Source of the DNA: Nostoc sp. NMS2
Lineage (GTDB): Bacteria; Cyanobacteriota; Cyanobacteriia; Cyanobacteriales; Nostocaceae
Direction of reading: 5' to 3'
NCBI RefSeq assembly: GCF_017115105.1
Contig: NZ_JABXKH010000173.1
Coordinates: 1 to 64,000, forward strand
DNA: 64,000 bases
Below are positions 16,260-52,142 of the stretch, piece after piece. The notes under the pieces were generated by a model. It searched no databases. It worked only from the letters and a program-made list of their open reading frames with translations, and was not told the origin of the DNA. Each line of letters starts with the position of its first letter. Positions within the stretch are counted from its first letter, which is position 1. Both the position numbers and the translations under genes were made by a program.

Positions 16260-19200
16260 ATGACTGCTTCTAGAATTGAAGCTGTTTTAGCACAGTTGCA
16301 AGAAGAAGTTAGCAATTGTGAACAGGCTCTACTCAAGCTCATACAGGTGAAAAAAGTTATGGTTGAGAATGTACCATTAACCAACTCAGTAAATACACAT
16401 CAGCAAAAAGTCGATATTGCGATTATTGGGATGGCTTCTATCTTTCCCCAATCAAAAAATTTACAGGAATATTGGGAAAAAATAATTCACAAAGTTGATT
16501 GTATTACTGATGTTCCCCCTTCGCGTTGGAGTGTAGAGGATTATTACGATCCTAATCCCAGAACGCCTGATAAAACCTATTGTAAAAGAGGCGGATTTAT
16601 CCCGGATGTCAATTTCAATCCGATGGAATTTGGGCTGCCACCCAACAGCCTAGAAGTCACAGATATATCACAATTGCTAGGTCTGGTTGTTGCAAAAGCA
16701 GCGATGGAAGATGCAGGTTACGGCGAATCTCGACAGTTTAACAGCGATCGCTACGATCGCCTTCGCCAACGCACTGGTGTAATCTTAGGTGTGGCACTAG
16801 GCAGACAATTAGCGGTTCCTCTGACTTCGAGAATGCAGTACCCGGTTTGGGAAAAAGTCCTCAAAGGCAGTGGCTTATCTGACGAGGATACACAAAAAAT
16901 CATTGAGAAAATCAAAAGTGCTTATGTACAGTGGGATGAGAACGCCTTCCCCGGTATGCTGGCAAACGTAGTTACAGGAAGAATTGCCAACCGCCTAGAT
17001 TTGGGTGGAACTAACTGTGTAGTAGATGCCGCTTGTGCCAGTTCATTAGGTGCGCTCAAAATGGCAATGAGCGAGCTAATTGAGCATCGAGCCGATATGA
17101 TGATCGCTGGTGGCGTTGACACCGACAACTCAATTCTGGCCTACATGTGCTTTAGCAAAACTCCTGCTGTTTCCCAAGGTGAAAATGTCAAACCTTTCGA
17201 TGCAGAATCAGATGGGATGATGCTAGGTGAAGGTGTGGGAATGTTAGTCCTAAAGCGCCTTGAGGATGCCCAGCGAGATAATGACCGAATCTATGCAGTT
17301 ATTAAAGGCATTGGAACTTCTAGCGATGGTCGCTATAAAAGTATCTATGCGCCACGTCCAGAAGGTCAAATGAGAGCTTTGCATCGTGCTTACGAAGATG
17401 CCGGATTTTCGCCTGCAAGTGTTGGTTTGATTGAAGCACACGGCACTGGTACTATGGCTGGAGATCCCGCCGAATTCTCATCTATAAAAGAAGTTTTTGG
17501 CGAAAACAATCCCAAAAAACAACATATTGCCCTGGGAACTGTCAAATCGCAGATTGGACATACAAAAGCTGCTGCGGGTGCGGCAAGTCTGATCAAAACG
17601 GCTTTGGCTTTACACCACAAAGTATTACCAGCCACGATTAATGTCACCAAACCGCATCCTAAGTTAGATATTGATAGTTCCCCATTTTATCTAAATACCG
17701 AAACCAGACCTTGGATTAGCGGCGATGACCAACCAAGACGTGCAGGGGTAAGTTCTTTTGGCTTTGGTGGCACAAATTATCACGTCGTTTTGGAAGAATA
17801 CACAAGTCAACATCAGCAACCCTATCGTTTACACAAACCTTCTCAGTCGGTGTTGCTATTTGCGTCAACACCTGAAGAATTGTTGTCGCGCATTCAAGAA
17901 ATTAGACAACAATTGCAATCTGATACGGGAGAACAGCTTTATACAGAATTGATTGCGGCTTCTCAATCTTTAGAAATTCCGGTTACAAATGCCAGACTTG
18001 GGTTTGTTGCTGATTCTCTCACTCAAGCTTGTGACTTGCTGCAAACAAGTATTGACTTGCTCAAAAGCAAGCTGCAAGCAGAATCATGGGAATATCCCCA
18101 AGGAATTTACTATCGCAAAACTGGCATAGTTACACAAGGGAAGGTGGTTGCCCTATTTTCTGGGCAAGGTTCGCAATATTTAGAGATGGGTCGGGAACTC
18201 TTAATTAACTTCCCTGACTTGGGACAGACTTATGCTCAAATTGATAGCCTTTTACGGGAAGACGGTTTGCAGCCCCTTTCAGAGGTTGTTTTCCCGAACC
18301 CTGTGTTTGATCTAGATCAAAAGACCGCCCAGATGAAGGTGTTGCAGCAAACAGAATACGCACAGCCGGCGATTGGAGCTTTTAGTGCTGGTTTGTACAA
18401 GATATTGCAACAAGCTGGGTTTAAGCCAGATTTCGTGGCTGGACATAGTTTTGGAGAACTGACTGCTTTGTGGGCTGCGGGAGTTTTGAGTGAGAAAGAT
18501 TACCTTTTCTTAGTCAAAGCTAGAGGTCAAGCGATGGCTGCACCAAAAGATCCTCTGTTGGATGCGGGAGTGATGCTGGCGGTGAAAGGGGATGTAAATC
18601 AGGTTACAGAACTAATTCAGAATTTCCCGCAAGTCACCGTTGCTAACCTGAATTCTCCAAATCAGATGGTGTTAGCAGGGACGAAAGCTGAAATTGCTAA
18701 TGTCCAGGAGGCTCTGAAAACTCAAGGGTTCTCTAGCATTTTGTTGGGAGTTTCCGCAGCCTTTCACACTCCATTAGTGGCTTATGCACAGCAACCTTTT
18801 GCCAGAGCAATTGAGAAAGTTACTTTTAATGCGCCACAAATCCCGGTTTATACAAATGTCACCGGGAAGCGTTATCCGAATGAGCCGCAAGTCATTCAAA
18901 AAGTCCTCAAAGACCACCTGAAGAATCAAGTGCTGTTTAAGCAAGAAATTGAAAATATTTATGCTGAAGGCGGTTACTGCTTTATTGAATTTGGGCCGCG
19001 AAGTGTTCTCACCAACTTGGTAAAAGATATCCTGGGCGATCGCTCTCATTTAGCTGTAGCTTTAAATGCTAGTCATCTCAAAGATAGCGATCGCACTTTG
19101 CGGCAAGCTGTTCTACAGTTGCGCGTTGCTGGCTTACCTTTGCAAAACTTAGACCCCTATCAATTGGAATACAAAATCCCAGAAGCTTCTCCAAATCAGT

Positions 19201-22200
19201 CCTTGAATGTGCGTTTAAATAGCACTAACTATGTATCGGATAAAACTAAGCAGTCCTTTGAAAAAGCTACGCAAAATGGGCATGAAGTGAAATCCACTGT
19301 TGTGATCGGTAATAAACCCAACTTCTCTCAAGCCACAGAGAAGGTTGCAGTTAACGGTCAATCCACCGTTGGCAATGGCAATAAATCTAACTTCTCTCAA
19401 GCCACTGAAAAGGTTGTAGTTAACGGTCAATCTACCTTTGGCAACGGCAATAAATCTAACCCCTCTCATCCAGCAGAGAAAGTAGCAGTTAACGGTGGAG
19501 TGAAATCTGTGCAGAATGGGCAATCAGACCAACTAGATATCAAATCTTTGCAATCTAGTCCAGAACTTCCTCTAAGTTATTTAAGAGCTATAGACAACTT
19601 AGAGTACACATTAATAGAGGTCAATCGCCATCAACATGATGTCTTGCAGGTTCATGAACAATCTTTGAACCATCAGACAGAATATACTAAAATTTTCTTC
19701 CAACTCATGGAGCAACAACATGAGTTATGGGGAAATGGTAAATTCAGCGAACCATATACAGAAACACAGCAACTCGTAGTTTCCAGTTCAGAGCGCAGCA
19801 TCATGCGGTTTCACGATCATCAAACTGATAGCCTCCGCATCCATGAGCAATATCTGAACTATCAGCAAGAATACACTAACAACTTTTTCCAATTGCTTCA
19901 GCGACATTATCAACCGTCGCCCAGCAATACCAATCAACATCTGATACCGCCAGTCAATTATCAACCAAGTCCAGTAGCTCCACCAGTTGAAGAGGATAAC
20001 CCTGTTCTGGAGACTGCACCGGTTGCTTTACCGAGTAACGGATTTGCCGCTAAATCTGAGCCAGTTTCAACTAATGGTAACGGCACAAATGGTAATGGTA
20101 ATGGCGCACATCATCAAGCAACAGCAGTTCTGGATATTACTCCATTAAAGGAGAATACTGCACCTGTAGCATTTACACCCGAACCACCAGTAATCATCGA
20201 TCAAGCTACTCTGAGTGAAACTCTAATTAACATCGTTAGTGATAAAACAGGCTATCCAACGGAGATGTTAGAGCTAACGATGGATATCGAGGCAGATTTG
20301 GGGATTGATTCGATCAAACGTGTAGAAATTCTCGGAGCGTTGTTAGAACTATATCCCAATTTGCCCAAGCCGAATCCTGAAGAAGTAGGACAACTACGCA
20401 CACTGGCTCAAATAGCTGAGTATATGGGGAAAATTGCATCTGAGATTTCTGGCGCTCTGGTGAATGAGGCAGGGAGCAGGGAGCAGGGAGCAGGGGGAGA
20501 TGGGGGAGATGAGGGAGATGGGGGAGATGGGGGAGTAACAGTAATACCTTCGTCATCTCCTCTATCCCTGTCATCTCCAGAGATTACTAACATTGTGTTC
20601 AATGTTGTTAGTGAAAAGACAGGCTATTCGATGACGATGTTAGATTTGTCGATGGATATTGAGACAGATTTGGGAATTGATGCTGTCAAACTTGCGGAAA
20701 TTTTGGGAGCGTTGCTAGAACTATACCCTGATTTACCGAAGCTGAATTCAGAAGCATTGGCTGAATTACGTACCCTTGGACAAATTGTTGCATACATGCA
20801 AGCAGGGGAGCAGGGAGCAGGGAGCAGGGGAGAAGAGTTTTCACCCCGCTCCTCTGCCTCTTCACCCAATGCCCCATCCCAAATTCTTCGTAGTCCTATC
20901 AGACTCAAATATCTTCCCGAACCTGATGTTTTAGATTTCACCTTACCCGATAACCATATCGCCTTGCTTACTGATGATGGTTCTCTGACTACGGCGAAAC
21001 TAGCTGAGACTCTCCTCAAGCACGGCTGCAAAACCGTTGTCTTAACTTTTCCTCCAACCGTGATTGCTAAACAATCTCCGTTACCTGAAGGGATTAGGCG
21101 TGTGCTGCTTACAGATTTGAGTGAGGAGCATTTGCAAGAACAGTTAGGAGCGATCGCTACTAACTATGGACAAATAGCTACGTTTATCCATCTGAATCCT
21201 TGCACTCACGACGATACAAGCAATCATGTGCGCTATCTGGAATCAGAAAAAGCCATTCTTCGCCATGTCTTTCTCATCGCCAAATATCTCAAAGAACCAC
21301 TCAATCAAGCAGCACTTCAAGGACGTAGTAGTTTTATAACTGTGGCTCGTCTGGATGGCGAATTTGGACTAGGCCAAAAAACTAACTTCGGTGCAATTGG
21401 CGCTGGACTATTTGGACTCACCAAAAGTTTGAATCAGGAATGGGAATCTGTATTTTGCCGAGCGATCGACCTCAGCCCTGATTTAGATGCCGAAACATCA
21501 GCACAGTATATCTTCGCCGAACTTCACGACCCAAATCTATTAGTCGTGGAAGTGGGATATAACTCACAAGGGCGAGTAACCCTCGTGTGTGAACAGGAAG
21601 AACAAAAAAACCCAAAGCAGGAAATCGGAGGAATCCCCTTTGCACCCAGCACCTTCTCTTCCAACCTTTTCCCCATCCCTAATGCCCAATCCCAAGTATT
21701 TCTCGTAAGTGGCGGTGCGAAAGGGATAACGGCTCAGTGTGTGATTAAACTAGCGCAGCGTTATAAATGCAAATTTATCTTGGTGGGTCGTTCCGCCGCC
21801 GATCCAGAACCCGTATGGACTGAAGGTTATTTGGGTGAAGCAGATTTGAAAAAGCGGATTATGGATGATTTCTTCGCTAGAGGTGAAAAACCCACACCTG
21901 CAATGGTGCAGAAAAAGTTTAACGCTATTTCATCTAGTCGGGAAATTGCTACAACTTTACAAGCTATCAAGCAGGCGGGTGGAAAGGCTGAATATTTGCA
22001 TGTTGATGTGACTGATGCGATCGCCCTTCAGGAAGAAGTTGCTAATGCTGTCAAGCGTTTTGGCCCGGTAACAGGAATTATTCACGGGGCTGGAAATCTA
22101 GCTGATAAGCGGATTGAGAAAAAATCAGTCCAAGATTTTGAAACAGTTTACACTGCCAAAGTTAAAGGTCTAGAAAACCTGTTGCGGTGCGTAACACCCG

Positions 22201-23390
22201 GTCAATTGAATTATTTAGTCCTGTTTTCTTCTGTAGTTGGCTTCTACGGAAACGTGGGACAGTCGGATTATGCGATCGCTAATGAAATTCTCAACAAATC
22301 AGCCCACCTTATCAAACGCAACCATCCCCATTCTCATGTAGTAGCGATTAATTGGGGCCCTTGGGATAGTGGTATGGTTTCTCCTGAATTAAAGCAAGCT
22401 TTTGCTGAACGGAATATTCAGACTATTCCTGTTGATATTGGCACAGAAATGTTAGTTAATGAATTAGCTAGCATAAATCAACAAACTGTGCAAGTTGTAA
22501 TTGGGAGTCCCCTAGTATATATCCCAGAAAAGTTACCAAGCGAGTTGAAAACTTTTCGTATCCATCGACAGCTAACATTACCAGCTAATCCCTTTTTACA
22601 AGACCATGTAATTGCTGGTTATCCAGTTCTGCCAGCAACTTGTGGACTATTATGGATTGCTAACGCCTGCGAACAAATCTATCCTGGTTACAAAGCCTTC
22701 CTTTATACAAATTATAAAGTTTTGAAGGGACTAATCTTTGATGAAAATTTAGGAACTGAATACACTTTAGAATTGCAAGAAATTGCTAAACATGATATCA
22801 ATGAAATAGATTTTGATGCCAAGATTTGGAGTAAAACTCCAGAAGGTAAAATCCGTTATCATTTTAGTAGCCAGATAAAACTGAAGCGGGAAATTCCTAA
22901 TGCCCCTACACACGAATCCCTGAACTTAAACCAGGATCGTAAAATCACCGCTACGACTTCATCAATTTATCAGAATGGGTCAGCTAGCTTGTTTCACGGA
23001 CTTACTTTTCAAGGCGTAAAATCTGTCTTAAATGCTACTCTGCAAAAGATCACTATAGAATGCTATTTGCCGAAAACTGAAGAAAGACAACAAGGACAAT
23101 TCCCAGTCCAAACATTTAATCCTTACATTGCAGATGTGGAGATTCACGCATTTTGGATTTGGGCACAGCATTTTTATCAGGTAGCTTGTTTACCTTCAGA
23201 AATCAAGAGTTTTGAGCAGTTTATAGCTATCCCATTTGATGAAATATTTTACGTTTCTTGTGAAATAAAATCAAAGACAGAATCGGGTTTAGTAGTTGAT
23301 CTAATCGCTCATAATGAGCAAGGACAAATATATAACCGGATGCTGGGAGCAAAGGGAACTATTTTACCCAAGCAATTAGATGAAATCTAA
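16260..23390 (+). CDS. PfaA/Hgl-like type I polyketide synthase KS-AT-ACP-ACP-KR-DH
   Basis: This is a 2376-aa megasynthase. The ketosynthase spans about residues 50-510 with an intact Cys259 (DAACASS), His394 (EAHGTGT) and His434 (GHTKAAAG). The acyltransferase has Ser730 (GHSFGE) and His836 (AAFHTPL). A long linker with tandem repeats (1018-1080) and two copies of an amphipathic motif (1121-1157, 1182-1218) follows. ACP1 carries the phosphopantetheine Ser1351 (DLGIDSIKRVEIL), whereas ACP2 has Ala1475 in its place. A PfaA-type ketoreductase (GGAKGIT near 1815, active-site Tyr in GQSDYAIANE) precedes a C-terminal hotdog dehydratase with His2116 (DHVIAGYPVLPAT). This layout belongs to polyunsaturated-fatty-acid and heterocyst-glycolipid synthases, which make long acyl chains iteratively. 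An N-terminal coiled coil (residues 1-45) may dock with a partner. Confidence 0.93.
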   Translation: MTASRIEAVLAQLQEEVSNCEQALLKLIQVKKVMVENVPLTNSVNTHQQKVDIAIIGMASIFPQSKNLQEYWEKIIHKVDCITDVPPSRWSVEDYYDPNPRTPDKTYCKRGGFIPDVNFNPMEFGLPPNSLEVTDISQLLGLVVAKAAMEDAGYGESRQFNSDRYDRLRQRTGVILGVALGRQLAVPLTSRMQYPVWEKVLKGSGLSDEDTQKIIEKIKSAYVQWDENAFPGMLANVVTGRIANRLDLGGTNCVVDAACASSLGALKMAMSELIEHRADMMIAGGVDTDNSILAYMCFSKTPAVSQGENVKPFDAESDGMMLGEGVGMLVLKRLEDAQRDNDRIYAVIKGIGTSSDGRYKSIYAPRPEGQMRALHRAYEDAGFSPASVGLIEAHGTGTMAGDPAEFSSIKEVFGENNPKKQHIALGTVKSQIGHTKAAAGAASLIKTALALHHKVLPATINVTKPHPKLDIDSSPFYLNTETRPWISGDDQPRRAGVSSFGFGGTNYHVVLEEYTSQHQQPYRLHKPSQSVLLFASTPEELLSRIQEIRQQLQSDTGEQLYTELIAASQSLEIPVTNARLGFVADSLTQACDLLQTSIDLLKSKLQAESWEYPQGIYYRKTGIVTQGKVVALFSGQGSQYLEMGRELLINFPDLGQTYAQIDSLLREDGLQPLSEVVFPNPVFDLDQKTAQMKVLQQTEYAQPAIGAFSAGLYKILQQAGFKPDFVAGHSFGELTALWAAGVLSEKDYLFLVKARGQAMAAPKDPLLDAGVMLAVKGDVNQVTELIQNFPQVTVANLNSPNQMVLAGTKAEIANVQEALKTQGFSSILLGVSAAFHTPLVAYAQQPFARAIEKVTFNAPQIPVYTNVTGKRYPNEPQVIQKVLKDHLKNQVLFKQEIENIYAEGGYCFIEFGPRSVLTNLVKDILGDRSHLAVALNASHLKDSDRTLRQAVLQLRVAGLPLQNLDPYQLEYKIPEASPNQSLNVRLNSTNYVSDKTKQSFEKATQNGHEVKSTVVIGNKPNFSQATEKVAVNGQSTVGNGNKSNFSQATEKVVVNGQSTFGNGNKSNPSHPAEKVAVNGGVKSVQNGQSDQLDIKSLQSSPELPLSYLRAIDNLEYTLIEVNRHQHDVLQVHEQSLNHQTEYTKIFFQLMEQQHELWGNGKFSEPYTETQQLVVSSSERSIMRFHDHQTDSLRIHEQYLNYQQEYTNNFFQLLQRHYQPSPSNTNQHLIPPVNYQPSPVAPPVEEDNPVLETAPVALPSNGFAAKSEPVSTNGNGTNGNGNGAHHQATAVLDITPLKENTAPVAFTPEPPVIIDQATLSETLINIVSDKTGYPTEMLELTMDIEADLGIDSIKRVEILGALLELYPNLPKPNPEEVGQLRTLAQIAEYMGKIASEISGALVNEAGSREQGAGGDGGDEGDGGDGGVTVIPSSSPLSLSSPEITNIVFNVVSEKTGYSMTMLDLSMDIETDLGIDAVKLAEILGALLELYPDLPKLNSEALAELRTLGQIVAYMQAGEQGAGSRGEEFSPRSSASSPNAPSQILRSPIRLKYLPEPDVLDFTLPDNHIALLTDDGSLTTAKLAETLLKHGCKTVVLTFPPTVIAKQSPLPEGIRRVLLTDLSEEHLQEQLGAIATNYGQIATFIHLNPCTHDDTSNHVRYLESEKAILRHVFLIAKYLKEPLNQAALQGRSSFITVARLDGEFGLGQKTNFGAIGAGLFGLTKSLNQEWESVFCRAIDLSPDLDAETSAQYIFAELHDPNLLVVEVGYNSQGRVTLVCEQEEQKNPKQEIGGIPFAPSTFSSNLFPIPNAQSQVFLVSGGAKGITAQCVIKLAQRYKCKFILVGRSAADPEPVWTEGYLGEADLKKRIMDDFFARGEKPTPAMVQKKFNAISSSREIATTLQAIKQAGGKAEYLHVDVTDAIALQEEVANAVKRFGPVTGIIHGAGNLADKRIEKKSVQDFETVYTAKVKGLENLLRCVTPGQLNYLVLFSSVVGFYGNVGQSDYAIANEILNKSAHLIKRNHPHSHVVAINWGPWDSGMVSPELKQAFAERNIQTIPVDIGTEMLVNELASINQQTVQVVIGSPLVYIPEKLPSELKTFRIHRQLTLPANPFLQDHVIAGYPVLPATCGLLWIANACEQIYPGYKAFLYTNYKVLKGLIFDENLGTEYTLELQEIAKHDINEIDFDAKIWSKTPEGKIRYHFSSQIKLKREIPNAPTHESLNLNQDRKITATTSSIYQNGSASLFHGLTFQGVKSVLNATLQKITIECYLPKTEERQQGQFPVQTFNPYIADVEIHAFWIWAQHFYQVACLPSEIKSFEQFIAIPFDEIFYVSCEIKSKTESGLVVDLIAHNEQGQIYNRMLGAKGTILPKQLDEI
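19311..19499 (+). repeat. 69-bp in-frame tandem repeat in the AT-ACP linker
   Basis: Two complete 69-bp units (19311-19379 and 19380-19448) and a 51-bp partial unit encode 23-residue repeats with the core FSQATEKVAVNGQST and GNGNK. The frame is kept, so the linker can grow or shrink without disrupting the synthase. They probably act as flexible spacers between the AT and the ACPs. Confidence 0.85.
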
Positions 23391-23899
23391 ATAGACATCA
23401 GCCTCAATACTGCTCGGTTAAGAAGATTTGTCGGTTGGGTAAAACTTTAGTGTTACCCAACAAATCCTGAAAATGTTGGGTTTCGTTCTTCAACCCAACC
23501 TACATTGGAGTTATTTTTTAGGCTTAACAGAAGGGAGCATCCCAATTTTGCTAAAAGGCACAGGACTGGCACAAAAACCCTGTACAAACATCTTTCCTTT
23601 GCGTTCTTTGCGTCCTTGGCGGTTCGTTATTTCATTCCTAGTCTAATTCCAAATACCCTATAAAAATACACTTGCACATTTGGGATGCTCCCTAACCGAA
23701 CAGTATTGACATCAGCCTGACTTTTCATGTCATTTGGAAAAACCCACGAAAAATTTAACCCCTATTCAAACTCTAAGGCAGAAAATTTAAAGTCTCTCTC
23801 CTAGAAGGAGAGAGATTTAGAGAGAGGTTTTCCAGATACCATGAACAGTCAGAGAATCAGCAACTTAAAAATGTATACATCAGCTTGAGGAAGTAGGTG
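23391..23899. other. 500-bp gap between synthase genes, mostly a MITE
   Basis: Almost all of it is the CAATAC-family element (23405-23708), followed by a hairpin-rich 'ctctctcctagaaggagagag' repeat. A good ribosome site (GAGGAAG) precedes the next gene. The insertion splits what would otherwise be a compact gene pair. Confidence 0.7.
23405..23708. mobile_element. CAATAC-family MITE copy 5, perfect 10-bp target duplication
   Basis: This 304-bp element starts CAATACTGCTCGGTTAAG and ends CTAACCGAACAGTATTG. The identical 10-mer ACATCAGCCT flanks both sides (23395-23404, 23709-23718). The interior holds a 'ttgggtaaaactttagtg' hairpin repeat that also occurs near 62940, and the 'gcgtccttggcggttcgtt' repeat shared with copies 1 and 2. 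Confidence 0.9.
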
Positions 23900-26800
23900 A
23901 TGGAAGGATTTTCACAAAATAAAATTCCTAAAATAGCTATTGTGGGGATGGATTGTTATTTGGGTGGTGGCTGCAAGGGATTAGATACCTTTGAACGCAG
24001 TATTTATGAGGGAATTCAGCATTTTATTTCCATACCTCCTCAGCGATGGCAAGCAATAGAAGCACAACAACAGTTGTTGAAAAACTATGGTTTTACCGAT
24101 GGTGTGTTACCATTAGGTGCATACATTAAAGATTTTAAAATTGATACTTTTCGTTTGGAAATACCACCAGAAGAAGTAGACAATTTTAACCCCGAAGAAC
24201 TGTTGATGCTTCAGGTAGCTAATAATGCTTTGAAAGATGCAGCACTTCGTCAAGGCACGAGAATAGCAATAATCATTGCTACTACTAAAGAACTAACTCT
24301 GCATCAACAAAAAGAGCAACTGGAAGTCATTGACAAATACAATGAATATCCCAGCTACATCGAAAATAGTGTGGCTAATTATATTTCCAAGCTGTGGAAT
24401 TTTGCTGGCCCGACGTTCACATTAATTGCCGAAGAAAATTCTGTTTTCAAAGCCTTAGAACTTGCCCAAAAGCTACTTGCAATCAGAGAAGTAGACGCTG
24501 TTTTGGTCGGTGCAATCGAGCTTGCTGGGGATGGCGCTAGTGTTTTACAACGAAATCAAATAACAAAAGTTAACACAGGCGTAAATACTCTTAGTTACGA
24601 CCAGAATGCTAACGGCTGGATAGTAGGTGAGGGTGCGGCGGCTGTAGTATTGAAGCTTCACGACACAGCAAAACAAGAGAACAATCGCATATATGCAACG
24701 ATTGACGCTCTTAGTCTCGTGGAAAATTCCAAATCTAAAATTAACTCTTCCTCTGTGCCAAATTCTGAAGTGATAACCCAGGCTTGTCAACAGGCTTTTC
24801 ATTTAGCAGATATCCAACCAACAGATATCAACTATTTAGAAGTTGTTGGTAGTGGAATTCCTCAGCAAGATGAGTTAGAAATTCAAGGTTTGCTTACAGC
24901 TTATCGCACATTTGAAGCAAATTTAACTTGTGCGATCGGTAGTGTTAAAGCCAATATCGGTCATACCTATGCCGCATCAGGGATAGTTAGTCTGGTTAAA
25001 ACAGCACTTTGTTTATATCACCGCTACATCCCCGCAGTTCCCCAGTGGTCTGGCCCCAAAATGCCAGAGATTTGGCGAGATAGTCCCTTTTATGTTGCTT
25101 CTGAATCAAAACCCTGGTTTTTAGAAAAAGGGGCCACTAGAAGAATAGCTGCAATTAACGGGATGGAGATAGATGGGAGTTATGCACATTTAATTTTGTC
25201 AGAGGAACTATCTCAGCAACATCGTAGCAGCAGATATTTAGAGCAAATGCCTTACTATGTGTTTGCGATCGCAGCTGACGATCAATCAACCCTATTAGAC
25301 CAAATCCGCACTCTTCAACAAACTATCACAGATTGCTCTATATCTGCTGCTGCTAAGTTGACTTTTAAAGCTTTTCAGCAGCATCAACAGGCAACTTATG
25401 CTGTAGCAATTCTCGGACACAATCAAGATGAATTGCAGCGAGAAATTCAGCACTCCCTCAAGGGTATTGTCAATGCCTTTGAGACAGGGAAAGACTGGCA
25501 AAGTCCTCTAGGCAGTTATTTTACAGCAAAACCACTGGGTCAAAGAGGTAAAATTTCTTTCGTTTATCCAGGTGCTTTTAGCGCCTATATCGGTGTCGGT
25601 CAAAATCTGTTTCGCTTGTTTCCTCAACTTTACGATGAACCACTCCTCAAAAATAGCCACAATCGTCTAGCAAACGTAGAGAAACTTGTCTATCCCCGAA
25701 GCTTAGAAAAATTATCAAATAGACAACTGGAAAACCTTGAACAGATATTAATTAACGATCCGGTAGGAATACTCGAATTAGAAATGTTCTTTGCCACACT
25801 CTTGACAGCAACTCTGAACAATTATTTCCAGATAAAGCCTCAAAGTGTTTTTGGTTATAGCTTGGGCGAAATTAGCATGATGTTGGCTCAAGGTATCTGG
25901 GGTAACTTTCTAGATGGTAGTCAGAGCTTTAACTCATCTTCTCTGTTTAAGACAAGGCTATCTGGCCCCAAAAATGCTGTGCGCGAGTATTGGGGATTAC
26001 CACAAGAGCAGAATGAACAAGGCGAAGATTTTTGGCGCAACTATATCGTCATGTGTCCAGTATCTCGTGTTCAGGAAGCTATCAAACATGAAAATCGCGT
26101 CTATTTACCTTTAATTAATACTACAGAAGAAGTTGTGATTGCTGGCGAAACCCAAGCCTGTAAGCGAGTAATTGCTAACCTAAATTGTGATGCTTTATCT
26201 GCTCCCTTCACCCATGTCATCCATTGCGAGGCAATGCGCTCTGAGTACGATGAACTTGTGAGATTAAATACATTACCTATCCAAAACGTATCAGAGACTA
26301 TTTTTTATTCCACAGCCGAGTATAAACCCATTAACCTCGACAGTGATTCTATTGCTCACAATATTGCTCAAAATGTTTGTAAACAGCTTAATTTTCCTCA
26401 ATTAATTAACCGCGTCTATGAGGATGGCTTCAAAATTTTCATCGAAGTAGGTGCCGGTAGTAACTGTTCGAGATGGATTGGTAAAATCCTCAATCAAAAA
26501 GAATACGTCACAGTGTCTCTTAATAAAAGAGGTGTAGACGATCATACTTCTATTGTCAAAGCCTTAGCAAAACTCCTAAGTCATAGGGTTGATCTAGATT
26601 TATCACCACTATATTCTCAAGAATCGGAAAATTTTAACCAAAGCCAGTCTAGAGTGAAAACTATAACTTTGGACAATAGCAAGATTAGTTACACGTCTTT
26701 GAAGAAGAGAAATCAAAAAATACTTCAAGATATAACCATCGAAAATGGTAATCAGCAGCAATTTCAACTATTAGAATTAAAGGAAGTTACACAAATGAAT

Positions 26801-27181: not shown

Positions 27182-27465
27182 TAATCATTTAAAGCAGTAA
27201 AGTACCCAGATTACTTGAATATAGCTTTTCCTAATCAAATGAGGTACATATATCATAGCCCCCTATCGAAGAGCGGGGAGCAGGATGGTTTCATACAACC
27301 AGAGAAAAACTAAAACTGGGTTTTAAAGCCTCTCTCCGTTTCGGGGAGAGGTTTGGAGAGGGGTAAAAAGCCATGCTACAAAACAAGAAATCAAGACTTA
27401 TAACTCACAAATAATGAGTATCAATTATCTGGTAAACAATTTTCTTAAACTGGAGATTCAAAAAA
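27182..27465. repeat. Gap with truncated nested repeats
   Basis: A TATAGC-type element starts at 27220 but is interrupted by a reverse-orientation, end-truncated copy (27287-27410) of the 154-bp element at 5634-5787. The pfaD ribosome site (CTGGAG) follows near 27450. Confidence 0.55.
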
Positions 27466-29127
27466 ATGATTGGCGCAGATAATATACTAAATAATAATGG
27501 TAGCTACCTGAAAATTTCAGACTTTATTTATCAACAAAATCAAGTTTGGCAAGGTGCTTTAGATTCTATATCTTTTAATGGAAAAGGGATAAAATCTAAG
27601 TTGCTAAATTTAGATAAGCCTTGTTATATTATTAAAGTGGAAGGAAAAATTGGCGCAACTAACGAAGGTCATTTATATCCTTATAATCCAGAAAAAACTG
27701 GGCAAATAGAAATATTAATAGCTGTTCTGCCCCTCTCAATCCGACAACTAGGCGATCCAAATTTTATCAAATCTCATGGTGTAAAATACGCTTATGCCAC
27801 GGGCGCAATGGCTCAAGGAATTGCTTCTGAAGACTTAGTAATTACCCTTGGCAAAGAGAGAATATTAAGTTCATTTGGTGCTGGTGGTTTATCTCCTAAT
27901 CGCGTCGAAGCAGCCATTAACCGTATTCAACAAGCTTTACCCCAAGGCCCTTACGCATTTAACTTGCTCCATAGTCCCAGCGAACCTGCTATTGAACGCG
28001 GTGTTGTCGATTTGTATCTTAAATATCAGGTGAGAACAATAGAAGCTTCCGCCTTCCTCGATTTGACTGACAACATTGTTTACTACCGAACTGCTGGACT
28101 TGCTTTGAATGCAGCCAATCAAATCGAAATCAAAAATAAAATCATTGCCAAAATTTCCAGGAGAGAAGTTGCAACTAAATTTCTACAACCTGCTCCCACA
28201 AAAATTTTGAACCAATTAGTTGAGCAAGGTTTTATTAGTGAATTACAAGCAACCCTCGCTGAAAAAATTCCTGTAGCTGACGATATTACTGTCGAAGCAG
28301 ATTCTGGAGGTCATACAGATAATCGTCCTTTGGTTTGTCTCTTACCTTCCATCTTGGAATTGAGAGATGAAATTCAAAGAAAGTTTTCTTATGAAAAACC
28401 TGTTAGAGTCGGAGTAGCAGGAGGAATTGCTACGCCACAATCAGCATTAGCTGCCTTTATGATGGGAGCAGCTTATGTTGTAACCGGCTCAATTAATCAG
28501 TCTTGTATTGAAGCTGGGACTTCTCAACATACTAAACAATTGCTGGCTCAAGCTGATATGGCTGATGTGATGATGGCTCCAGCAGCAGATATGTTTGAAA
28601 TGGGGGTAAAACTCCAAGTTCTCAAAAGAGGAACCCTCTTTCCTTTACGAGCGCAAAAACTGTTTGAATTATATAAAAACTATGACTCAATCGAAGATAT
28701 TCCACTGGTAGAAAGAGATAAATTAGAAAAACAAGTCTTCAAAAATAGCTTGGGAGCAGTTTGGGAAGAGACAGTTAATTATTTATCTCAACGTAATCCC
28801 GATAAATTAACCAAAGCTATTAATAATCCCAAGCTGAAGATGGCTCTAATTTTCCGATGGTATCTCGGATTATCATCCCGTTGGTCTAACTTTGGAGAAA
28901 AAGGCAGAGAAATGGATTATCAAATTTGGTGTGGCCCTGCTATGGGCAGCTTTAATGACTGGGTTAGAGGCTCTTATTTATCTGAACCAAATAATCGCCA
29001 GGTAGTTGATGTCGCAAACCATATCATGACTGGTGCAGCATTTTTATACCGAATACAAAGTTTGAAAATTCAAGGCTTGCAAATGCCAGATTATTATAGT
29101 GAATATCGCCCAGATACTTTTAACTAA
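27466..29127 (+). CDS. pfaD: PfaD-family enoyl reductase
   Basis: This 553-aa protein is of the nitronate-monooxygenase/FabK-like TIM-barrel flavin family, specifically the PfaD type of PUFA and trans-AT PKS systems. Typical stretches are GPYAFNLLHSPSEPAIERG, VEADSGGHTDNRPL (with the active-site His) and the FMN phosphate loop VGVAGGIATPQSALAAFMMGA. It should reduce enoyl thioesters on the synthase ACPs in trans, using FMN and NAD(P)H. The main synthase has KR and DH but no ER domain, so PfaD completes the reductive cycle. It lies 14 nt before the diiron oxygenase gene and is probably cotranscribed. The length is normal. Confidence 0.95.
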   Translation: MIGADNILNNNGSYLKISDFIYQQNQVWQGALDSISFNGKGIKSKLLNLDKPCYIIKVEGKIGATNEGHLYPYNPEKTGQIEILIAVLPLSIRQLGDPNFIKSHGVKYAYATGAMAQGIASEDLVITLGKERILSSFGAGGLSPNRVEAAINRIQQALPQGPYAFNLLHSPSEPAIERGVVDLYLKYQVRTIEASAFLDLTDNIVYYRTAGLALNAANQIEIKNKIIAKISRREVATKFLQPAPTKILNQLVEQGFISELQATLAEKIPVADDITVEADSGGHTDNRPLVCLLPSILELRDEIQRKFSYEKPVRVGVAGGIATPQSALAAFMMGAAYVVTGSINQSCIEAGTSQHTKQLLAQADMADVMMAPAADMFEMGVKLQVLKRGTLFPLRAQKLFELYKNYDSIEDIPLVERDKLEKQVFKNSLGAVWEETVNYLSQRNPDKLTKAINNPKLKMALIFRWYLGLSSRWSNFGEKGREMDYQIWCGPAMGSFNDWVRGSYLSEPNNRQVVDVANHIMTGAAFLYRIQSLKIQGLQMPDYYSEYRPDTFN

Positions 29128-29141
29128 AGGAGGAAAAATAC

Positions 29142-30443
29142 ATGGATACTATTAAAATTGATGACCGAATTCCTAAGATTCAAAATAGGCTTTTTGAGCA
29201 GGCACATACTCAGCCATTAGAATTAAAAACTCTTGCCATAGCTATTAATAAACAGGGAATTAATGGAGAGAAATTGTACTCTCATCCTGGAATAATTCCT
29301 TTACCTATGCCATTTTGCGGATATTTACGTTCTTTGAGTAAACGTCAAAAAGCAATTTTATCGGCAGCGTTTCTAGCTAATTTCTACAAATTTGTTGCCA
29401 ATAGTGAATCGCAAGCTATTGTATCTAACATAAGTGTTTCTGAAAAAGTTTTTGCTCCCTACTCAGATGAATATATGATTCTTCATCAGGAAACTAATGA
29501 AGAGTTAGATCATATTTGGTCTTTCCGAACTATACATAGTATGGTTGTTAGAGAAACAAGAGTTAAAGACTCATTTGATGAGCCTGGTTTCTTTTATGGA
29601 AATGTTGGTGCTATATCTCAATTAGATATAGAAAAACTGACTACTCATTTTATTTTTGATGTAGAACTTGAAAAAACTCTGTTTCATCTAGCCAATGGTA
29701 AAACTTTTCTCAAAAATTTAGTAGATCAGCTACAATGTCAAGATAGAAGTTGGTTATATCGAACTTTACGCTTTATAGTTGGGGATGCCGTGAGGATGCT
29801 ACCCGCTCAAAAAGTTCAAGAGAATGGGTTGGGTGGTTTGTGGTTACTTTTCCGATATGTTGCCAATGTAGAATTAAAACAAGCTGAAAGCTTTTTATTT
29901 GATGAACCTGAAAATTTTGATTATGAGCCATTAGCTTTTGAACTCAATCAGGGTCACTTAGCAGATGAAGCCCGTCACTACACAACATCTTTCGATTTAG
30001 GCTTAGAACTGTATAAAAAAGCTTCTCCAGAAGCTCAAGAGTTCATTAGACATTTTCTCCAAAAAGTTGTGGAAGATAACATTAATGGTGCTTTTAGAAC
30101 TTATCTTGAGAAGATAGACCTAATTAAGCAAGGATTGCTATTTACTGAGGTTAGAATTGGGCTAGATACACTACGTATGTCTTTGAATCATCCTGAATTT
30201 GCCGATAAGCAAATAGATGTGGATGAACTAGTTGATTCTTGGAGAGATATGAGCTTAAGTTGGCGAAAAATAATTGGTCCCTTAGAACAAAAAAGTTGGC
30301 ATTATAGAGCGCAGCAGCTATCTCGTCTAATTCAATCACTGGAACTTGAATTAGATAAAGACCGACTAGGTAATCGCTATGAGCGCTATCAGGATGCTCT
30401 GGAAACTAAGGATATTCAAAAACTTGTTGAAGTTGCCCAATAA
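29142..30443 (+). CDS. AurF-type diiron oxygenase
   Basis: This 433-aa helical protein shows the ligand pattern of AurF/CmlI non-haem diiron oxygenases: Glu121-x2-His124 (EELDHIW) and His272-x3-Glu276-x2-His279 (HLADEARH), exactly the spacing of H223/E227/H230 in AurF. Further acidic ligands are probably Glu117 and one in the 240s helix. AurF and CmlI oxidise aryl amines; other relatives hydroxylate or oxidise acyl chains. It follows pfaD by 14 nt with a strong ribosome site (AAAGGAGG), and a ferredoxin gene follows 46 nt later, the obvious electron donor. It likely oxidises the acyl chain or an amine of the product. The substrate is unknown. Confidence 0.82.
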   Translation: MDTIKIDDRIPKIQNRLFEQAHTQPLELKTLAIAINKQGINGEKLYSHPGIIPLPMPFCGYLRSLSKRQKAILSAAFLANFYKFVANSESQAIVSNISVSEKVFAPYSDEYMILHQETNEELDHIWSFRTIHSMVVRETRVKDSFDEPGFFYGNVGAISQLDIEKLTTHFIFDVELEKTLFHLANGKTFLKNLVDQLQCQDRSWLYRTLRFIVGDAVRMLPAQKVQENGLGGLWLLFRYVANVELKQAESFLFDEPENFDYEPLAFELNQGHLADEARHYTTSFDLGLELYKKASPEAQEFIRHFLQKVVEDNINGAFRTYLEKIDLIKQGLLFTEVRIGLDTLRMSLNHPEFADKQIDVDELVDSWRDMSLSWRKIIGPLEQKSWHYRAQQLSRLIQSLELELDKDRLGNRYERYQDALETKDIQKLVEVAQ

Positions 30444-30489
30444 GTGGAAAATCTATTAACTCTTTTACCAATTCCAATAAGTTAAAAAA

Positions 30490-30777
30490 ATGGTAGTATC
30501 CATTCATTTTCAAGACGATCAAAGAACAGTTAAAGTCGAAGCAAATCAACGCTTAACTAAGATTTGCGATCGCTATCCTAGTTCAATTTTATTTGGTTGT
30601 CGTAGTGTTGCTTGCGGAACCTGCCTCATAGAAGTTGTCAGTGGGATAGAAAATCTAATTCCTGTAATGGATGAAGAGCGGATTTTACTTGATGTGTTAG
30701 CTCCAGAGAATCCCAATGTTCGCCTAGCTTGTCAATGCGTAGTGCAGGGTGATATTTGCATTCGGATGGCTGATTAA
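30490..30777 (+). CDS. 2Fe-2S ferredoxin
   Basis: This 95-aa ferredoxin has cluster ligands Cys37, Cys42 and Cys45 (GCRSVACGTC) and a fourth at Cys81 or Cys83 (LACQC). The C-x4-C-x2-C pattern is of the plant or FdxH-like type. It lies directly behind the diiron oxygenase gene, so it is most likely the dedicated electron carrier that re-reduces the diiron centre. The length is normal. No ferredoxin reductase gene is nearby; a housekeeping reductase would be needed. Confidence 0.92.
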   Translation: MVVSIHFQDDQRTVKVEANQRLTKICDRYPSSILFGCRSVACGTCLIEVVSGIENLIPVMDEERILLDVLAPENPNVRLACQCVVQGDICIRMAD

Positions 30778-31076
30778 CTGACAAATTTTATGTAGCTCGA
30801 TATGGGTTTATATCGATTAGCTATAAGGTTGCTCGATAATTTAGGGCAAAATATCAAGTCTTAGCAAGCTTCATTTTGTGCAGTTTCACAAAAGATTGTT
30901 ATTAGGAAACATGAAGCAGTTGGAAAGCTCAATGGTTTTTCTAATATCTCTTATCTTAGAGGTTGTTTGAAAAGTTTTTCAAACATCCTCTTAGACTTTT
31001 CAAAAACTTTAGCCAGTATAGCAATCCTATTTAGGAATGCTATATATCCAATTCCTTTTACTTCAGAGGTATGTAA
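30778..31076. other. Gap with hairpin between ferredoxin and ACP genes
   Basis: It contains a good hairpin at 30958-30992 (arms AGAGG.TGTTTGAAAA and complement, separated by a few bases) and AT-rich sequence. The hairpin could attenuate transcription into the ACP gene or mark an mRNA processing point. No gene is seen. Confidence 0.5.
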
Positions 31077-31382
31077 ATGAGTCAGTCTATTCCTGAGACA
31101 ACTAAAAAGCAGTCTTATACCGCAGAAGAAATTCAAGCTTGGTTAGTGTCTCATATTGCAGAGCAGCTAGGAGTTGAAGCCAAGGATATAGATGTCCGTC
31201 AGCCTTTAGACAGCTACGGTTTAGAGTCAGCGCAGGCAATGTTTTTGGTTAGCAAAGCGGAGAAGTTGTTTGGTTTTGAACTATCTCCAATCTTATTGTG
31301 GCGTTACCCTACTATTGAAACCCTATCCCAGCGATTAGCCGAAGAATCTAAAGCCTCACAATCAGAAACTTTTGAGATTTGA
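31077..31382 (+). CDS. Free-standing acyl carrier protein
   Basis: This 101-aa ACP/PCP-like carrier has phosphopantetheine attachment Ser51 in [10 protein letters not shown], and helices before and after of the normal pattern. The N-terminal 15 residues are an extension. The GLESA form is more like PKS/NRPS carrier domains than fatty-acid AcpP. It sits between the redox genes and a condensation-like acyltransferase. It may receive the acyl chain from the synthase and present it to the diiron oxygenase or to the acyltransferase. It is likely modified by an Sfp-type transferase encoded elsewhere. Confidence 0.92.
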
Positions 31383-31549
31383 AAAATAAAGCTGTTTGTA
31401 AAAAGTTTAAATAACAAAATTTTGATCGTTTCAAACTATGTTTTACAGGTCTTTAGCAAAGCTTATTCAGCTTGTCAGTCAATAAAAACAAGCTCAATCA
31501 ATAACTAAGCTTGCAAGCAATCAGTCCTTAGAGGAAATCAAAAGTAAAT

Positions 31550-32884
31550 ATGATTTACAACAGAAAACTGGGATGTCTTGAGCAAGCTATGGAAATCTTA
31601 AATAGCCACGCTAAAACCTGGAACATAGTCACTATTAGTCGTATCAAGGGCTATATCTGCGAAGAAACTCTGGCACAAGCGTTAGACGTGATTCAGTGTC
31701 TTCACCCACGTCTAAATTCTCAAATTATTCGTTCTAAGAATAGTTTTAGCTTTCAAAATCAAGGAACAGCAAAAATAACTTTACGGGTTGTAAGGCAGTC
31801 AAATAATGAGCAGTGGCAAGAAGTTGTTTATGAAGAGATGAACAAGGGAATTGATAGTAGCCAAGGTCTGTTGCGAGTGGTTCTTGTTCATCTGGTGGGT
31901 GATGAGCATATAAGTTACCTAATTACAACAATACACCATGCGATCGCAGATGGTTTATCATCCATCCGACTTCACTCAGAAATTTTGACTTTTTGTCAGA
32001 AAATTGTGTCCGGCGAACCAATTCACCCACTTACTAGCTTAACTCCACTTCCACCCATCGAAGAACTAATGCCCGAATGGACTAAGGGGTTCACAGGTAA
32101 GATAAACAGCATTATCTTTTTGTTGCAGCTTGGGTTCCAAAAAGTCTGGAATCAACCAAAAACATTAGGTTTTCACAAGTATGTATCCGTTGCAAAGCGT
32201 AATTGCAATATTATCCACAGACAACTTAATCAAGACTTAACCCAAAAATTTGTAAATCATTGTCGGCAAGAGAATACAACAATACATAGTGCTTTGTGTG
32301 CTGTACTTATGTTTACAGTAGTGAGAAAAAGAATTAAAGGTAATAGAAAAAATGTCCGAGTAAACTGCTTATCATATTTTGACTTGAGGAGATATTTGGA
32401 ACCAGCAATCAGTGATAATCACATGGCTGTATTAGCCTCCTCTATTATGGGATTTCATACCATACGTAGAAATATGTCCATCTGGGAATTAGCCCGTGAG
32501 GTGAAACAAAAGCTTGAATTTAGTAAAAAGTCTGGCGATCTTTTTAAAATGATTTTGATTGCCAAGCACCTCATAGATTTTTGTTTTATCTTCCCCAAGC
32601 AAGTAGCTGCCACAGTGTCTGTTTCTAATGTTGGCAAGGTAAATGTGCCCGCAATTTACGGTGAATTTGAACTAGAAGAAATCAGTTTTGCTGGTTCTCA
32701 TGCTTTGTATGCGGGTGTTTTTGTTATTCATGCTTCAACTTTTAAAGGAAAAATGCTGCTAAATTTTGTATTTTCTCAGCCTTCAATCGATCAAAATGAT
32801 ATGGAAATTATTGTGAATAATATTATGTCATACATATTTGATATTTGCAATTTAAACAGAGATTGTTTATTAACATTTGATTAG
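31550..32884 (+). CDS. Condensation-domain-like acyltransferase
   Basis: This 444-aa stand-alone protein has the HHxxxDG catalytic motif (HHAIADG, catalytic His130) of NRPS condensation domains, PapA and wax-ester or alcohol acyltransferases. The usual C-domain DFGWG motif is absent; instead the C-terminal half has the PapA-like phrase SVSNVGKVNVPAIYG. It is therefore more likely a PapA/AATase-type enzyme that moves an acyl group from an ACP to an alcohol or amine than a peptide-bond-forming domain. It follows the free ACP gene and precedes a protein with a TubC docking domain. It could release the synthase product onto a head group. The acceptor is unknown. Confidence 0.85.
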   Translation: MIYNRKLGCLEQAMEILNSHAKTWNIVTISRIKGYICEETLAQALDVIQCLHPRLNSQIIRSKNSFSFQNQGTAKITLRVVRQSNNEQWQEVVYEEMNKGIDSSQGLLRVVLVHLVGDEHISYLITTIHHAIADGLSSIRLHSEILTFCQKIVSGEPIHPLTSLTPLPPIEELMPEWTKGFTGKINSIIFLLQLGFQKVWNQPKTLGFHKYVSVAKRNCNIIHRQLNQDLTQKFVNHCRQENTTIHSALCAVLMFTVVRKRIKGNRKNVRVNCLSYFDLRRYLEPAISDNHMAVLASSIMGFHTIRRNMSIWELAREVKQKLEFSKKSGDLFKMILIAKHLIDFCFIFPKQVAATVSVSNVGKVNVPAIYGEFELEEISFAGSHALYAGVFVIHASTFKGKMLLNFVFSQPSIDQNDMEIIVNNIMSYIFDICNLNRDCLLTFD

Positions 32885-32952
32885 GCGTATTTGTTAATAA
32901 TTTTAGAAGCTCACAAACTAATACTTTGAAAAAATTAGGAGATTCTGCAACT

Positions 32953-34830
32953 ATGAACGCATCAGATATTGTAGCAAAACTTACTCAACAGGGTGTTCAT
33001 TTGTGGGTTGATAACGACAAATTAAAGATTCGCTCACCAAAGGGAGTAATCACATTAGAAATGCAAGCAGAAATAGTTGCTAGCAAAGCAGAGATTGTGG
33101 CATTTCTGCACGAGATGGATGTAGCTGCTGATTTAAGTTCTGTCCCTTTAAGTCAAGGATTAAATTTACAAACTATTGGTCGTCTAATTGGAGGATTTTC
33201 AGAGCAATCAACTGTAGAGTATCAGCCGCCAATTATTGATCCTAAAGCTATGGCTCAAAAATTGATAGTTACATTTAAACCTTTACCTGATAGCTACAAT
33301 AATCAAGAAATTCGTAAATTTCGCCAAGAATTGGAAGTTAAACTGAGAGATTATGGTGTCAAAGTTTTATCTTGGAACGAAGCGATCGCAGAATTTAACT
33401 ATGACCTAACACTTCCGATCATTAACAAAAAGAAAAACTTCAAATTCAAAGGGGTTAAATCAGAAGTTAATGCAATCATTGATGTAGAAATAGCTCCTTC
33501 AATTATCAGAAAAATTGGTATATTTGCAGCAGAGCTACTCTATCAATTTTATTCTAGCTTTGTTTTAAACGATCGAAAAATGCCTGTTATAAAAATAGCC
33601 AGATTGAGCAGTTGGGCTGAAGATCATGCAGCTAAGTATGTTGATAATCCTAGCAAAACACAAGTAATTGTTATTACAGAAATAGACAATGATTTCATTA
33701 ATCCTCTTATTGCGTATAAACAAAAAATAAATATTGGCTTAAACACTTTAATTAGAACATTTTCAGAGATTGTTATTGGAGTTTCCTCTGAGAAAATTTC
33801 TATATTGAACATGAATCTTTCCGACTCCATATTTTCCAAAAACGAGATAGAAGGGTTTGTCTTAAAATCACTAATCCCTAAAGTTTTTGTACCGATTGCC
33901 CCACTTTTACTGAGTCGATTTGAGCTAGGACAGTATAATCCCCAAGAATCTAGCTATGCTGCAAAATTAGTTAAATTGGGCCAGGAATTGGCATCAACAG
34001 GCTTATTCCCTCCTGGTTTTAAGTTGGACGAAGTTATTAAAAGAAAATCCCATAGAGATATTGTCAGCATCATTATAAATGGTAGAACAGGTGTTTCTTA
34101 TGGCTTTGTTGCTTATGCTGAACCTCCACAATATTTTGGAGATGTAGAAGTAACTCAAAACGAGTGGGAAAATCTACTACCTGTTAAGGGATTTAGTAGT
34201 AACGAACTTCGTCAAAATGAAAATGGCAGACGCTATGTAAAAATTAAATTACTAGAAAAATACGTATTTAGGCAAATCCCCGATATTTGGCTTGTCAGTT
34301 CTCGTTCTGGGTCAAATAAAACAGACTTGAATATCGCTGACGATATTATCAGAATTGGTTTGAAAGAAAAGCTATATCTCCAATTACCTAAAGTGATTCG
34401 TTCGGAATTAGCAGATATGAAACCTTCTTATGATATTTATGTCATGCTTGCGATTAGTCTTTCTGCGGCTTTGTATACACCAGAGTTAATTAAAAATGGT
34501 GCGCCAATTGTTCATTTCCACGGCTACCCAGCATTTGATTGGTTTAAACCAAATGAATACTGTGTTGGAGTAAATAATCCTTCGGTACCTTGTGGAACCT
34601 ATGAATCTGGTGTATTCAACTTTCTGGGTATTTCTAGCTTGGTCGAACAACAAGCTAGAAATATATCTTTAGTTAGTTTAGTAGAACCAGATCATGGAAC
34701 AAATTTTATAGCTCATGATTTGGATTATCTAGTCGAAAGATTGAAAACTGGGTGTGCAGACGGGCAAATTGAATTAGGTGGAAAACATTTTGCTTCTCTG
34801 AAATCGAAGGTAGAAGAATACAGAATCTAA
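32953..34830 (+). CDS. Unknown protein with N-terminal TubC docking domain
   Basis: The protein has 625 aa from the ATG with a good ribosome site (AGGAG 11 nt upstream); an in-frame TTG at 32926 would add nine residues. Residues 1-52 are a typical TubC_N docking domain of NRPS/PKS assembly lines (VAKLTQQGVHLWVDNDKLKI). The remaining 570 residues match no family I recognise. They contain mixed alpha/beta sequence, several His/Cys-containing motifs (IVHFHGYPAFDW, VPCGTYESGVFN, VEPDHGTNFIAHD) and no ATP-binding or thioesterase motif. TubC domains bind C-terminal peptides of partner proteins, so this may be a tailoring or release enzyme recruited to the carrier protein. It is the last gene of the set and is followed by a hairpin. 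Confidence 0.8.
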   Translation: MNASDIVAKLTQQGVHLWVDNDKLKIRSPKGVITLEMQAEIVASKAEIVAFLHEMDVAADLSSVPLSQGLNLQTIGRLIGGFSEQSTVEYQPPIIDPKAMAQKLIVTFKPLPDSYNNQEIRKFRQELEVKLRDYGVKVLSWNEAIAEFNYDLTLPIINKKKNFKFKGVKSEVNAIIDVEIAPSIIRKIGIFAAELLYQFYSSFVLNDRKMPVIKIARLSSWAEDHAAKYVDNPSKTQVIVITEIDNDFINPLIAYKQKINIGLNTLIRTFSEIVIGVSSEKISILNMNLSDSIFSKNEIEGFVLKSLIPKVFVPIAPLLLSRFELGQYNPQESSYAAKLVKLGQELASTGLFPPGFKLDEVIKRKSHRDIVSIIINGRTGVSYGFVAYAEPPQYFGDVEVTQNEWENLLPVKGFSSNELRQNENGRRYVKIKLLEKYVFRQIPDIWLVSSRSGSNKTDLNIADDIIRIGLKEKLYLQLPKVIRSELADMKPSYDIYVMLAISLSAALYTPELIKNGAPIVHFHGYPAFDWFKPNEYCVGVNNPSVPCGTYESGVFNFLGISSLVEQQARNISLVSLVEPDHGTNFIAHDLDYLVERLKTGCADGQIELGGKHFASLKSKVEEYRI

Positions 34831-35130: not shown

Positions 35131-35367
35131 TAGCATTTTTACGCAGACGACTTATTGGTTTTAGAAAAAATTGCTCAAATATTATATTAAAGTTTTTTAT
35201 TGGACAATTTTTTCCAGAATTTGTAGATGAAGTTTATCATTATTTGAATGTATTTAAGCTGAATCGAAGACGTGTCAATGCGAAAAATATAGCCACAGAT
35301 AATATTAATATGCCAGTTGATAATTGTGGAATAAGTCACACAAATAGTTAAGTTTGTTTAATAAATT

Positions 35368-48324: not shown

Positions 48325-48349
48325 TTATTATTATCTTAAGGAGTGAGAA

Positions 48350-52137: not shown

Positions 52138-52142
52138 TTCCT

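Follow-up and report, generated by a model that had tools for sequence, protein, structure and literature searches.

A putative aldolase-fold docking protein and an exchangeable diiron oxygenase-like cassette in an hgl-like lipid synthase island of Nostoc sp. NMS2

Hgl-like islands of heterocystous cyanobacteria are smaller, additional gene islands in which homologues of hgdCB and hglEAFGCA lie on five open reading frames (ORFs) (PMC11804610). They are widespread in these organisms, their product is unknown (Perez Gallego et al. 2025, PMC11804610), and they are probably not involved in the formation of heterocysts or akinetes (PMC11804610). For the ngl cluster of Nostoc punctiforme, the named parts are FAAL, CylC, a CylK homologue, polyketide synthase (PKS) and a glycosyltransferase, and its products, the nostochlorosides, are C21 glycolipids that carry chlorine and a vicinal diol and whose odd chain was ascribed by the authors to cleavage of a larger PKS product, with the steps left open (PMC10849952). 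Here we analyzed a stretch of 64,000 nucleotides from Nostoc sp. NMS2 (NZ_JABXKH010000173.1, positions 1 to 64,000, hereafter the window), which lies on contig C124 of a genome of 7.57 Mb (G000) and contains an hgl-like island from 16260 to 34830. Our leading but tentative reading of its sequence is that the island makes a long-chain lipid for export, which would be oxidized on an acyl carrier protein (ACP) and ended by a protein that we named TubC-X; in relatives the lipid is probably glycosylated.

An earlier note, made from the letters of this DNA, had described eight consecutive plus-strand genes, and all eight ORFs were found in place with open frames and with Pfam and NCBIfam matches that agreed with the families claimed. 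The features of the locus are as follows.

10187 to 10876, minus strand: ABC transporter ATPase of the DevA/HgdA type (Pfam ABC_tran, 124 bits; conserved beside the island)
11146 to 12318, minus strand: FtsX-type permease of the DevC/HgdC type (Pfam FtsX; 61% identical to the gene at the equivalent place of the island on contig C178)
12458 to 13663, minus strand: HlyD-type membrane fusion protein of the DevB/HgdB type (Pfam HlyD_D23; 54% identical to the equivalent-place gene of the C178 island)
14123 to 14446, minus strand: conserved protein of 107 aa, candidate regulator
15159 to 15557, plus strand: conserved small ORF of 132 aa upstream of the PfaA gene (no Pfam cut-off passed)
16260 to 23390, plus strand: PfaA/HglE-type synthase, KS-AT-ACP-ACP(no Ser)-KR-DH (TIGR02813, motifs, homology to C178)
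23897 to 27181, plus strand: KS(chain-length-factor-like, CLF)-AT protein of the HglC/PfaB-C type (pfaB_fam; homology to C178)
27466 to 29127, plus strand: PfaD-type enoyl reductase (TIGR02814, 664.7 bits; 76% identical to the C178 PfaD-like protein)
29142 to 30443, plus strand: diiron enzyme of the AurF/CylC superfamily, 433 aa, with EExxH and HxxDExxH; swappable cassette
30490 to 30777, plus strand: [2Fe-2S] ferredoxin, likely partner of the diiron enzyme (Pfam Fer2; gene order)
31077 to 31382, plus strand: free ACP with the C-terminal tail ...SQSETFEI (Pfam PP-binding)
31550 to 32884, plus strand: PapA/condensation-type acyltransferase (Pfam PapA_C, 57.7 bits)
32926 to 34830, plus strand: TubC-X, with a TubC docking domain, a Rossmann-like domain and a predicted class II aldolase-fold domain
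35187 to 35348, plus strand: remnant of a short-chain dehydrogenase/reductase (SDR) gene (the SDR C-terminus matched by tblastn at 57-65% over 48-54 aa)

The synthase core is made up of three proteins. The PfaA-type protein belonged to the PfaA subfamily, with 2213 bits on TIGR02813 (cut-off 1010), the KS(CLF)-AT protein reached 157.7 bits on pfaB_fam (cut-off 144.3), and the PfaD score lay above the TIGR02814 cut-off of 449, with a further match to Pfam NMO, the nitronate monooxygenase family. The motif patterns for KS, AT, KR, DH and the first ACP were all present in PfaA, while its DH domains fell slightly below the Pfam cut-offs (26.1 against 27 and 23.2 against 23.7). In the KS(CLF)-AT protein, the AT remained below its cut-off, with 18.6 against 32.7. 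The earlier description of an ACP-ACP tandem is corrected here, because Ala replaced the Ser of the second ACP (GIDAVK, around residue 1471). At this site eight of nine other Nostoc PfaA copies had Ala or Gly and no second ACP was matched in the ninth (G185); the Ser was kept in G033, G103, G040, G132 and G078. The expected motifs were also missing from the KS-like domain of the CLF protein, as is usual for CLF proteins. Fer2, PP-binding, PapA_C, Condensation and TubC_N were all above their Pfam cut-offs in the window proteins.

A larger second synthase locus, which matched the first half of PfaA at 63%, was present on contig C178 of the same genome. In addition to the identities listed above, PfaA was 57 and 60% identical to two ORFs of this locus, and the KS(CLF)-AT protein was 53% identical to the C-terminal two thirds of a C178 protein of 1583 aa. 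Because C178 also carries an HglB-type protein consisting of an ACP and an NAD_binding_4 reductase, and in view of its genes and of the five-ORF count, we infer that it is the hgl island of the genome, its PfaD-like gene corresponding to the published hglA. By this homology, PfaA, KS(CLF)-AT and PfaD of the window form an iterative long-chain synthase like that of the C178 island. The window locus, with hgdC, hgdB and hglE/F/G/C/A homologues on five ORFs and with a separate, fuller island in the same genome, thus fits the published hgl-like islands (PMC11804610) as a second copy of the heterocyst-glycolipid machinery. Polyunsaturated fatty acid synthases of the Pfa kind share the PfaA, PfaB/C-like and PfaD parts and differ in that the island has its DH at the end of PfaA, with none found in the KS(CLF)-AT protein, and a DevBCA exporter. 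The claim of the earlier note that this was a lipid synthase of the hgl/pfa type, joined by a diiron enzyme and an ACP, was therefore borne out by homology and profile matches, whereas its view of the core as undescribed was not, since the core matches the hgl-like islands already in print. The optional cassette, the swapping of alleles, the pairing of TubC-X with a tailed ACP and the link to ngl are new here. No words beginning with oxygenase, ferredoxin or halogen occurred in the main text of the hgl-like island paper (PMC11804610), to which the present analysis adds TubC-X, the tail of the ACP and the connection to ngl. Among the top-ranked matches in the open-access full-text literature, hgl-like islands were not linked with CylC or ngl, and TubC-X was not described.

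TubC-X connects this island to a cluster kind with a solved product. On contig C13 of the same genome (L134, L135), a second TubC-X was found in an ngl-type cluster with CylC, in the order FAAL, ACP, CylC, PKS, PKS, TubC-X, SDR, a glycosyltransferase resembling monogalactosyldiacylglycerol synthase, methyltransferases and a beta-propeller protein; G090 contained homologues in the same order with extra genes. The C13 TubC-X was 56-60% identical to those of 17 island regions, in six of which an SDR 58-61% identical to that of C13 stood behind TubC-X. The likeness to ngl (PMC10849952), as known from the ngl-type clusters C13 and G090, thus consists of a tailed ACP followed by TubC-X and a homologous SDR, and the difference lies at the front, where ngl-type clusters begin with FAAL, ACP, CylC and modular PKSs and the island begins with a synthase of the polyunsaturated fatty acid type. 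None of the ngl-type parts (FAAL, CylC, modular PKS, CylK, glycosyltransferase) was among the eight island proteins.

The TubC docking domain of TubC-X scored 64.4 bits against a Pfam cut-off of 26, and the start of the protein is perhaps the ATG at 32953, as many homologues begin with MN(A/V)S. Besides the Rossmann-like domain, a domain with a class II aldolase fold was predicted. The order of HFH, DHG and PSYD fitted class II aldolases by eye, and HxH and DHG, with these His and Asp residues, were invariant in 25 of 25 TubC-X proteins; class II aldolases have a metal site of HxH plus a distal His, and an acid residue, to which these residues of TubC-X may correspond. The tail of the free ACP was conserved as well, its pattern matching 28 of 29 clusters and not one of the 673 remaining ORFs, and within the regions examined the tail occurred only on the ACP encoded upstream of TubC-X. 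These observations suggest that TubC-X pairs with the tailed ACP, which is part of the tentative reading given above. Over 82 aa the ACP itself shared 62% identity with the ACP portion of the C178 ACP-reductase, which is HglB-like.

Based on these homologies, the synthase would build a long acyl chain and hand it to the free ACP. The diiron enzyme, with electrons from the ferredoxin, would then oxidize an unactivated C-H bond of the ACP-bound chain, hydroxylation or desaturation being likelier than chlorination. TubC-X may dock on the same ACP, in the place held by the HglB-type reductase in the fuller island, and end the chain by metal-dependent C-C chemistry, after which SDR, methyltransferases or glycosyltransferases would act in some relatives and DevBCA would export the product. 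The synthase, ACP, docking and export parts of this scheme draw on homology and conservation, while the type of oxidation, the chain-ending chemistry and the product class are our inferences. As TubC-X and SDR also sit in ngl-type clusters, we predict a product akin to the nostochlorosides, either a lipid or a glycolipid with an odd chain and a vicinal diol. In its most specific form, which we consider doubtful, the proposal is that TubC-X is a new chain-ending enzyme, an ACP-tail-docked class II aldolase fold that makes or breaks a C-C bond and so produces the odd carbon and the vicinal diol of nostochlorosides, that hgl-like islands make a hidden family of odd-chain diol lipids, and that the EExxH cassette is an oxygenase sister of the halogenases, swapped by lineages to change the site or kind of oxidation.

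Several observations weigh against this pathway. TubC-X matched no Pfam family up to E 10, Aldolase_II included, its hhalign comparison with class II aldolases gave a probability of about 1% or less, which is not significant, and the Foldseek TM-scores were modest, about 0.25 by query and 0.44-0.53 by target, so that the aldolase assignment comes from the predicted fold and the order of motifs. The tail pattern was derived from these same related clusters, and the ngl-type PKS in G090, which ends with ...SESETFEV, fails it, deviating at one point from an arrangement otherwise like that of C13. An HglB-like protein was kept alongside TubC-X in G404 and in the oxygenase-bearing G040, and no ACP was found in the G013 region; TubC-X is therefore no simple replacement of HglB. 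PapA was missing in three of eight oxygenase-less islands and in G078. In the window only the remnant of the SDR is left, and a glycosyltransferase is lacking from the island; either partners from other loci, such as the ngl-type cluster on C13, would have to act, or the product differs. Two common accessory proteins of relatives (461 and about 290 aa), considered as glycosyltransferases, had no Pfam match. On the supporting side, the accessory genes scanned after TubC-X included Pfam-confirmed glycosyltransferases in G156 and G356, and there were methyltransferases in G031, G110 and G132. An ABC exporter and the Pfam-less protein of 461 aa, which follow TubC-X in several relatives, were missing from the window, as was an intact SDR.

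In an alternative reading, TubC-X merely releases the chain as a hydrolase or has a structural role, and the product is an ordinary long-chain acid, an ester formed via PapA, or an alcohol, with no odd-carbon chemistry. The lack of a significant aldolase sequence match, the PapA-type acyltransferase in 16 of 17 oxygenase-type regions and the island without glycosyltransferase all speak for it, and we regard it as a real possibility, if not a probable one. The chain-ending role proposed for TubC-X draws instead on the predicted fold, the invariant motifs and the shared SDR.

The diiron enzyme was related most clearly to CylC-type proteins. It had no Pfam match at E 0.01 and no NCBIfam match at E 0.1, while its profile matched CylC-type proteins with a probability of 97.5% (E 8.7e-12). 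Compared with 32 CylC-type proteins, eight of the nine diiron residues of NocO/CylC were shared. The ninth, the Gln of QExxH in 32 of 32 CylC-type proteins, was Glu, giving EExxH in 16 of 16 oxygenase copies and in both distant homologues (G575 and G551). Substitution of Ala for any of the nine NocO residues, Q128 included, abolishes chlorination, and among 241 further NocO homologues the one of the nine that was not absolutely conserved was a residue other than this Gln (PMC12101540). AurF has Asp at the position of the Gln in CylC (PMC12101540).

It is unlikely that the enzyme is a divergent CylC-type halogenase and that the island makes a chlorinated lipid. The profile match and the eight common residues would agree with this, and so would a 2021 survey, which lists a class of nitronate monooxygenase-containing biosynthetic gene clusters (BGCs) with three examples from LEGE Nostocales, each with a CylC homologue together with PKSI, ferredoxin, ACP or glycosyltransferase and without a product (PMC8406957); this listing also counts against the earlier claim that the system was undescribed. 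Since the present cluster also occurs in a Nostoc genome from LEGE (L071), the three surveyed BGCs may be of the same kind. With Glu in place of the halogenase Gln in all 16 copies and NocO Q128A being inactive, however, oxygenation fits better than chlorination. The enzyme is also encoded near a similar ACP, as are the CylC/NocO halogenases (PMC8406957, PMC12101540), but it has only 18-20% identity to them and a ferredoxin gene of its own, and no ferredoxin homologue was found in the four ngl-type regions. The G132 island (L039, L040) carried the EExxH oxygenase and a separate QExxH CylC side by side, together with a CylK-like beta-propeller protein that shares 42% identity with its CylK-like counterpart on contig C13; the CylK label of these proteins is partly our assumption. 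We thus tentatively read the diiron enzyme, within the overall reading, as a distant oxygenase-like sister of the CylC halogenases.

The oxygenase was full length in 16 of 192 family genomes, the own genome included, and broken in one more, G078. Three further family genomes gave only weak matches, two of which were CylC-type proteins. When 338 class genomes were searched with the oxygenase profile, 12 had a match, two strong ones lying outside the family. The ferredoxin gene followed the oxygenase in 17 of 17 regions, the window and the broken G078 copy included; in G575 homologues of both (50% and 43%) were adjacent in a different setting, and in G551 no ferredoxin homologue was found beside the oxygenase. 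From this gene order the ferredoxin is likely the electron partner of the diiron enzyme. Of the TubC-X loci, twelve were compared, of which eight were hgl-like islands without oxygenase and ferredoxin and four were ngl-type clusters. A quick TubC-X tree of 30 rows required four changes of the oxygenase label, at least three of them forced by starred branches. Judged by this distribution, oxygenase and ferredoxin are an optional cassette of hgl-like islands. In G078 (L053, L054) the oxygenase was truncated and PapA lost, with the island otherwise kept, and in G103 (L021) part of the oxygenase (residues 290-432, 68%) occurred a second time, about 43 kb from the first copy.

Two oxygenase alleles occurred in Nostoc, and that of the window was shared with G181, Nostoc sp. 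UCD121 and Nostoc sp. S4 (89-92%). Against G186, G163, G185 and G156, the nucleotide identity ran at about 80-97% across PfaD and roughly the first 120 bases of the oxygenase, was about 66-86% over the rest of that gene, 81-83% immediately behind it and about 92% in the ferredoxin. Approximately unbiased (AU) tests rejected a single clade of the allele carriers G000 and G181 for the three core proteins (p 3e-64) and the core clade of the window for the oxygenase (p 4e-28), with trees that took in 14 of the 17 regions and with groups named after the pattern was seen. These comparisons indicate that the oxygenase gene is replaced between lineages, near its own borders.

The genes from PfaA through TubC-X were kept together in 17 family regions, the window's own included, with few changes of order: PapA stood before ACP in G103, G040 and G129 and before the oxygenase in G132, it was absent in G078, and two extra ORFs preceded TubC-X in G185. 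The eight genes are more than chance neighbors because they recur together in these regions. DevBCA was found upstream of the synthase in 15 of 15 regions reaching far enough, the own one included, and at least one Dev gene was in the stretch compared for all eight oxygenase-less islands (downstream in G404). The exporter that the earlier note had linked to the cluster is, by this conservation, part of the locus. It is improbable that the genes are neighbors without a common pathway or that the locus is in decay in this strain; its SDR remnant, the absence of the ABC exporter and other genes found after TubC-X in relatives, and the second ACP without Ser would suit such a decay, but the genes are held together in 17 regions and the eight frames are open, and of the motifs looked for, only those of the second ACP and of the KS-like CLF domain are missing.

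The remaining explanation, an AurF-like N-oxygenase acting on an amine as the earlier note had considered, is very remote: although all 19 scanned members of the joint oxygenase and CylC set matched Pfam AurF (PF11583) at E up to 1 (best 5.3e-8) and an acidic residue precedes ExxH, as the Asp does in AurF (PMC12101540), the 433-aa window protein matched AurF at E 0.013 with 15.1 bits, under the cut-off of 29.6, which is weak beside its strong CylC-type profile match (obtained by a different method), no nitrogen context was seen, and none of the eight Pfam-scanned island proteins was an amine-forming enzyme.

Two conserved small ORFs lie beside the island genes. The 132-aa ORF was 65-93% identical in 13 of 14 other regions reaching far enough and absent from G132. 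The 107-aa protein was 86-100% identical beside 19 islands, the own included, and occurred in the same 11 of 28 searched genus genomes as the oxygenase; as it was found in 103 of 192 family genomes, some without TubC-X, it is not strictly tied to the island. Farther along the window (45036-60752, plus strand), a thiamine pyrophosphate (TPP) enzyme, an ELFV dehydrogenase, two Pfam-less ORFs, an NHL-repeat protein, a glycosyltransferase, a dehydroquinate (DHQ) synthase and an anthranilate synthase are among the ORFs of a row, which we take to resemble a scytonemin cluster.

Hgl-like islands are widespread in heterocystous cyanobacteria with an orphan product. Through TubC-X, the tail of the ACP and the SDR they are connected with a kind of cluster that has a solved product, which makes their product class directly testable. 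The difference between Glu and Gln would provide a natural contrast of oxygenase and halogenase within one diiron superfamily, and TubC-X is a concrete candidate for the unexplained odd-carbon step of nostochloroside biosynthesis.

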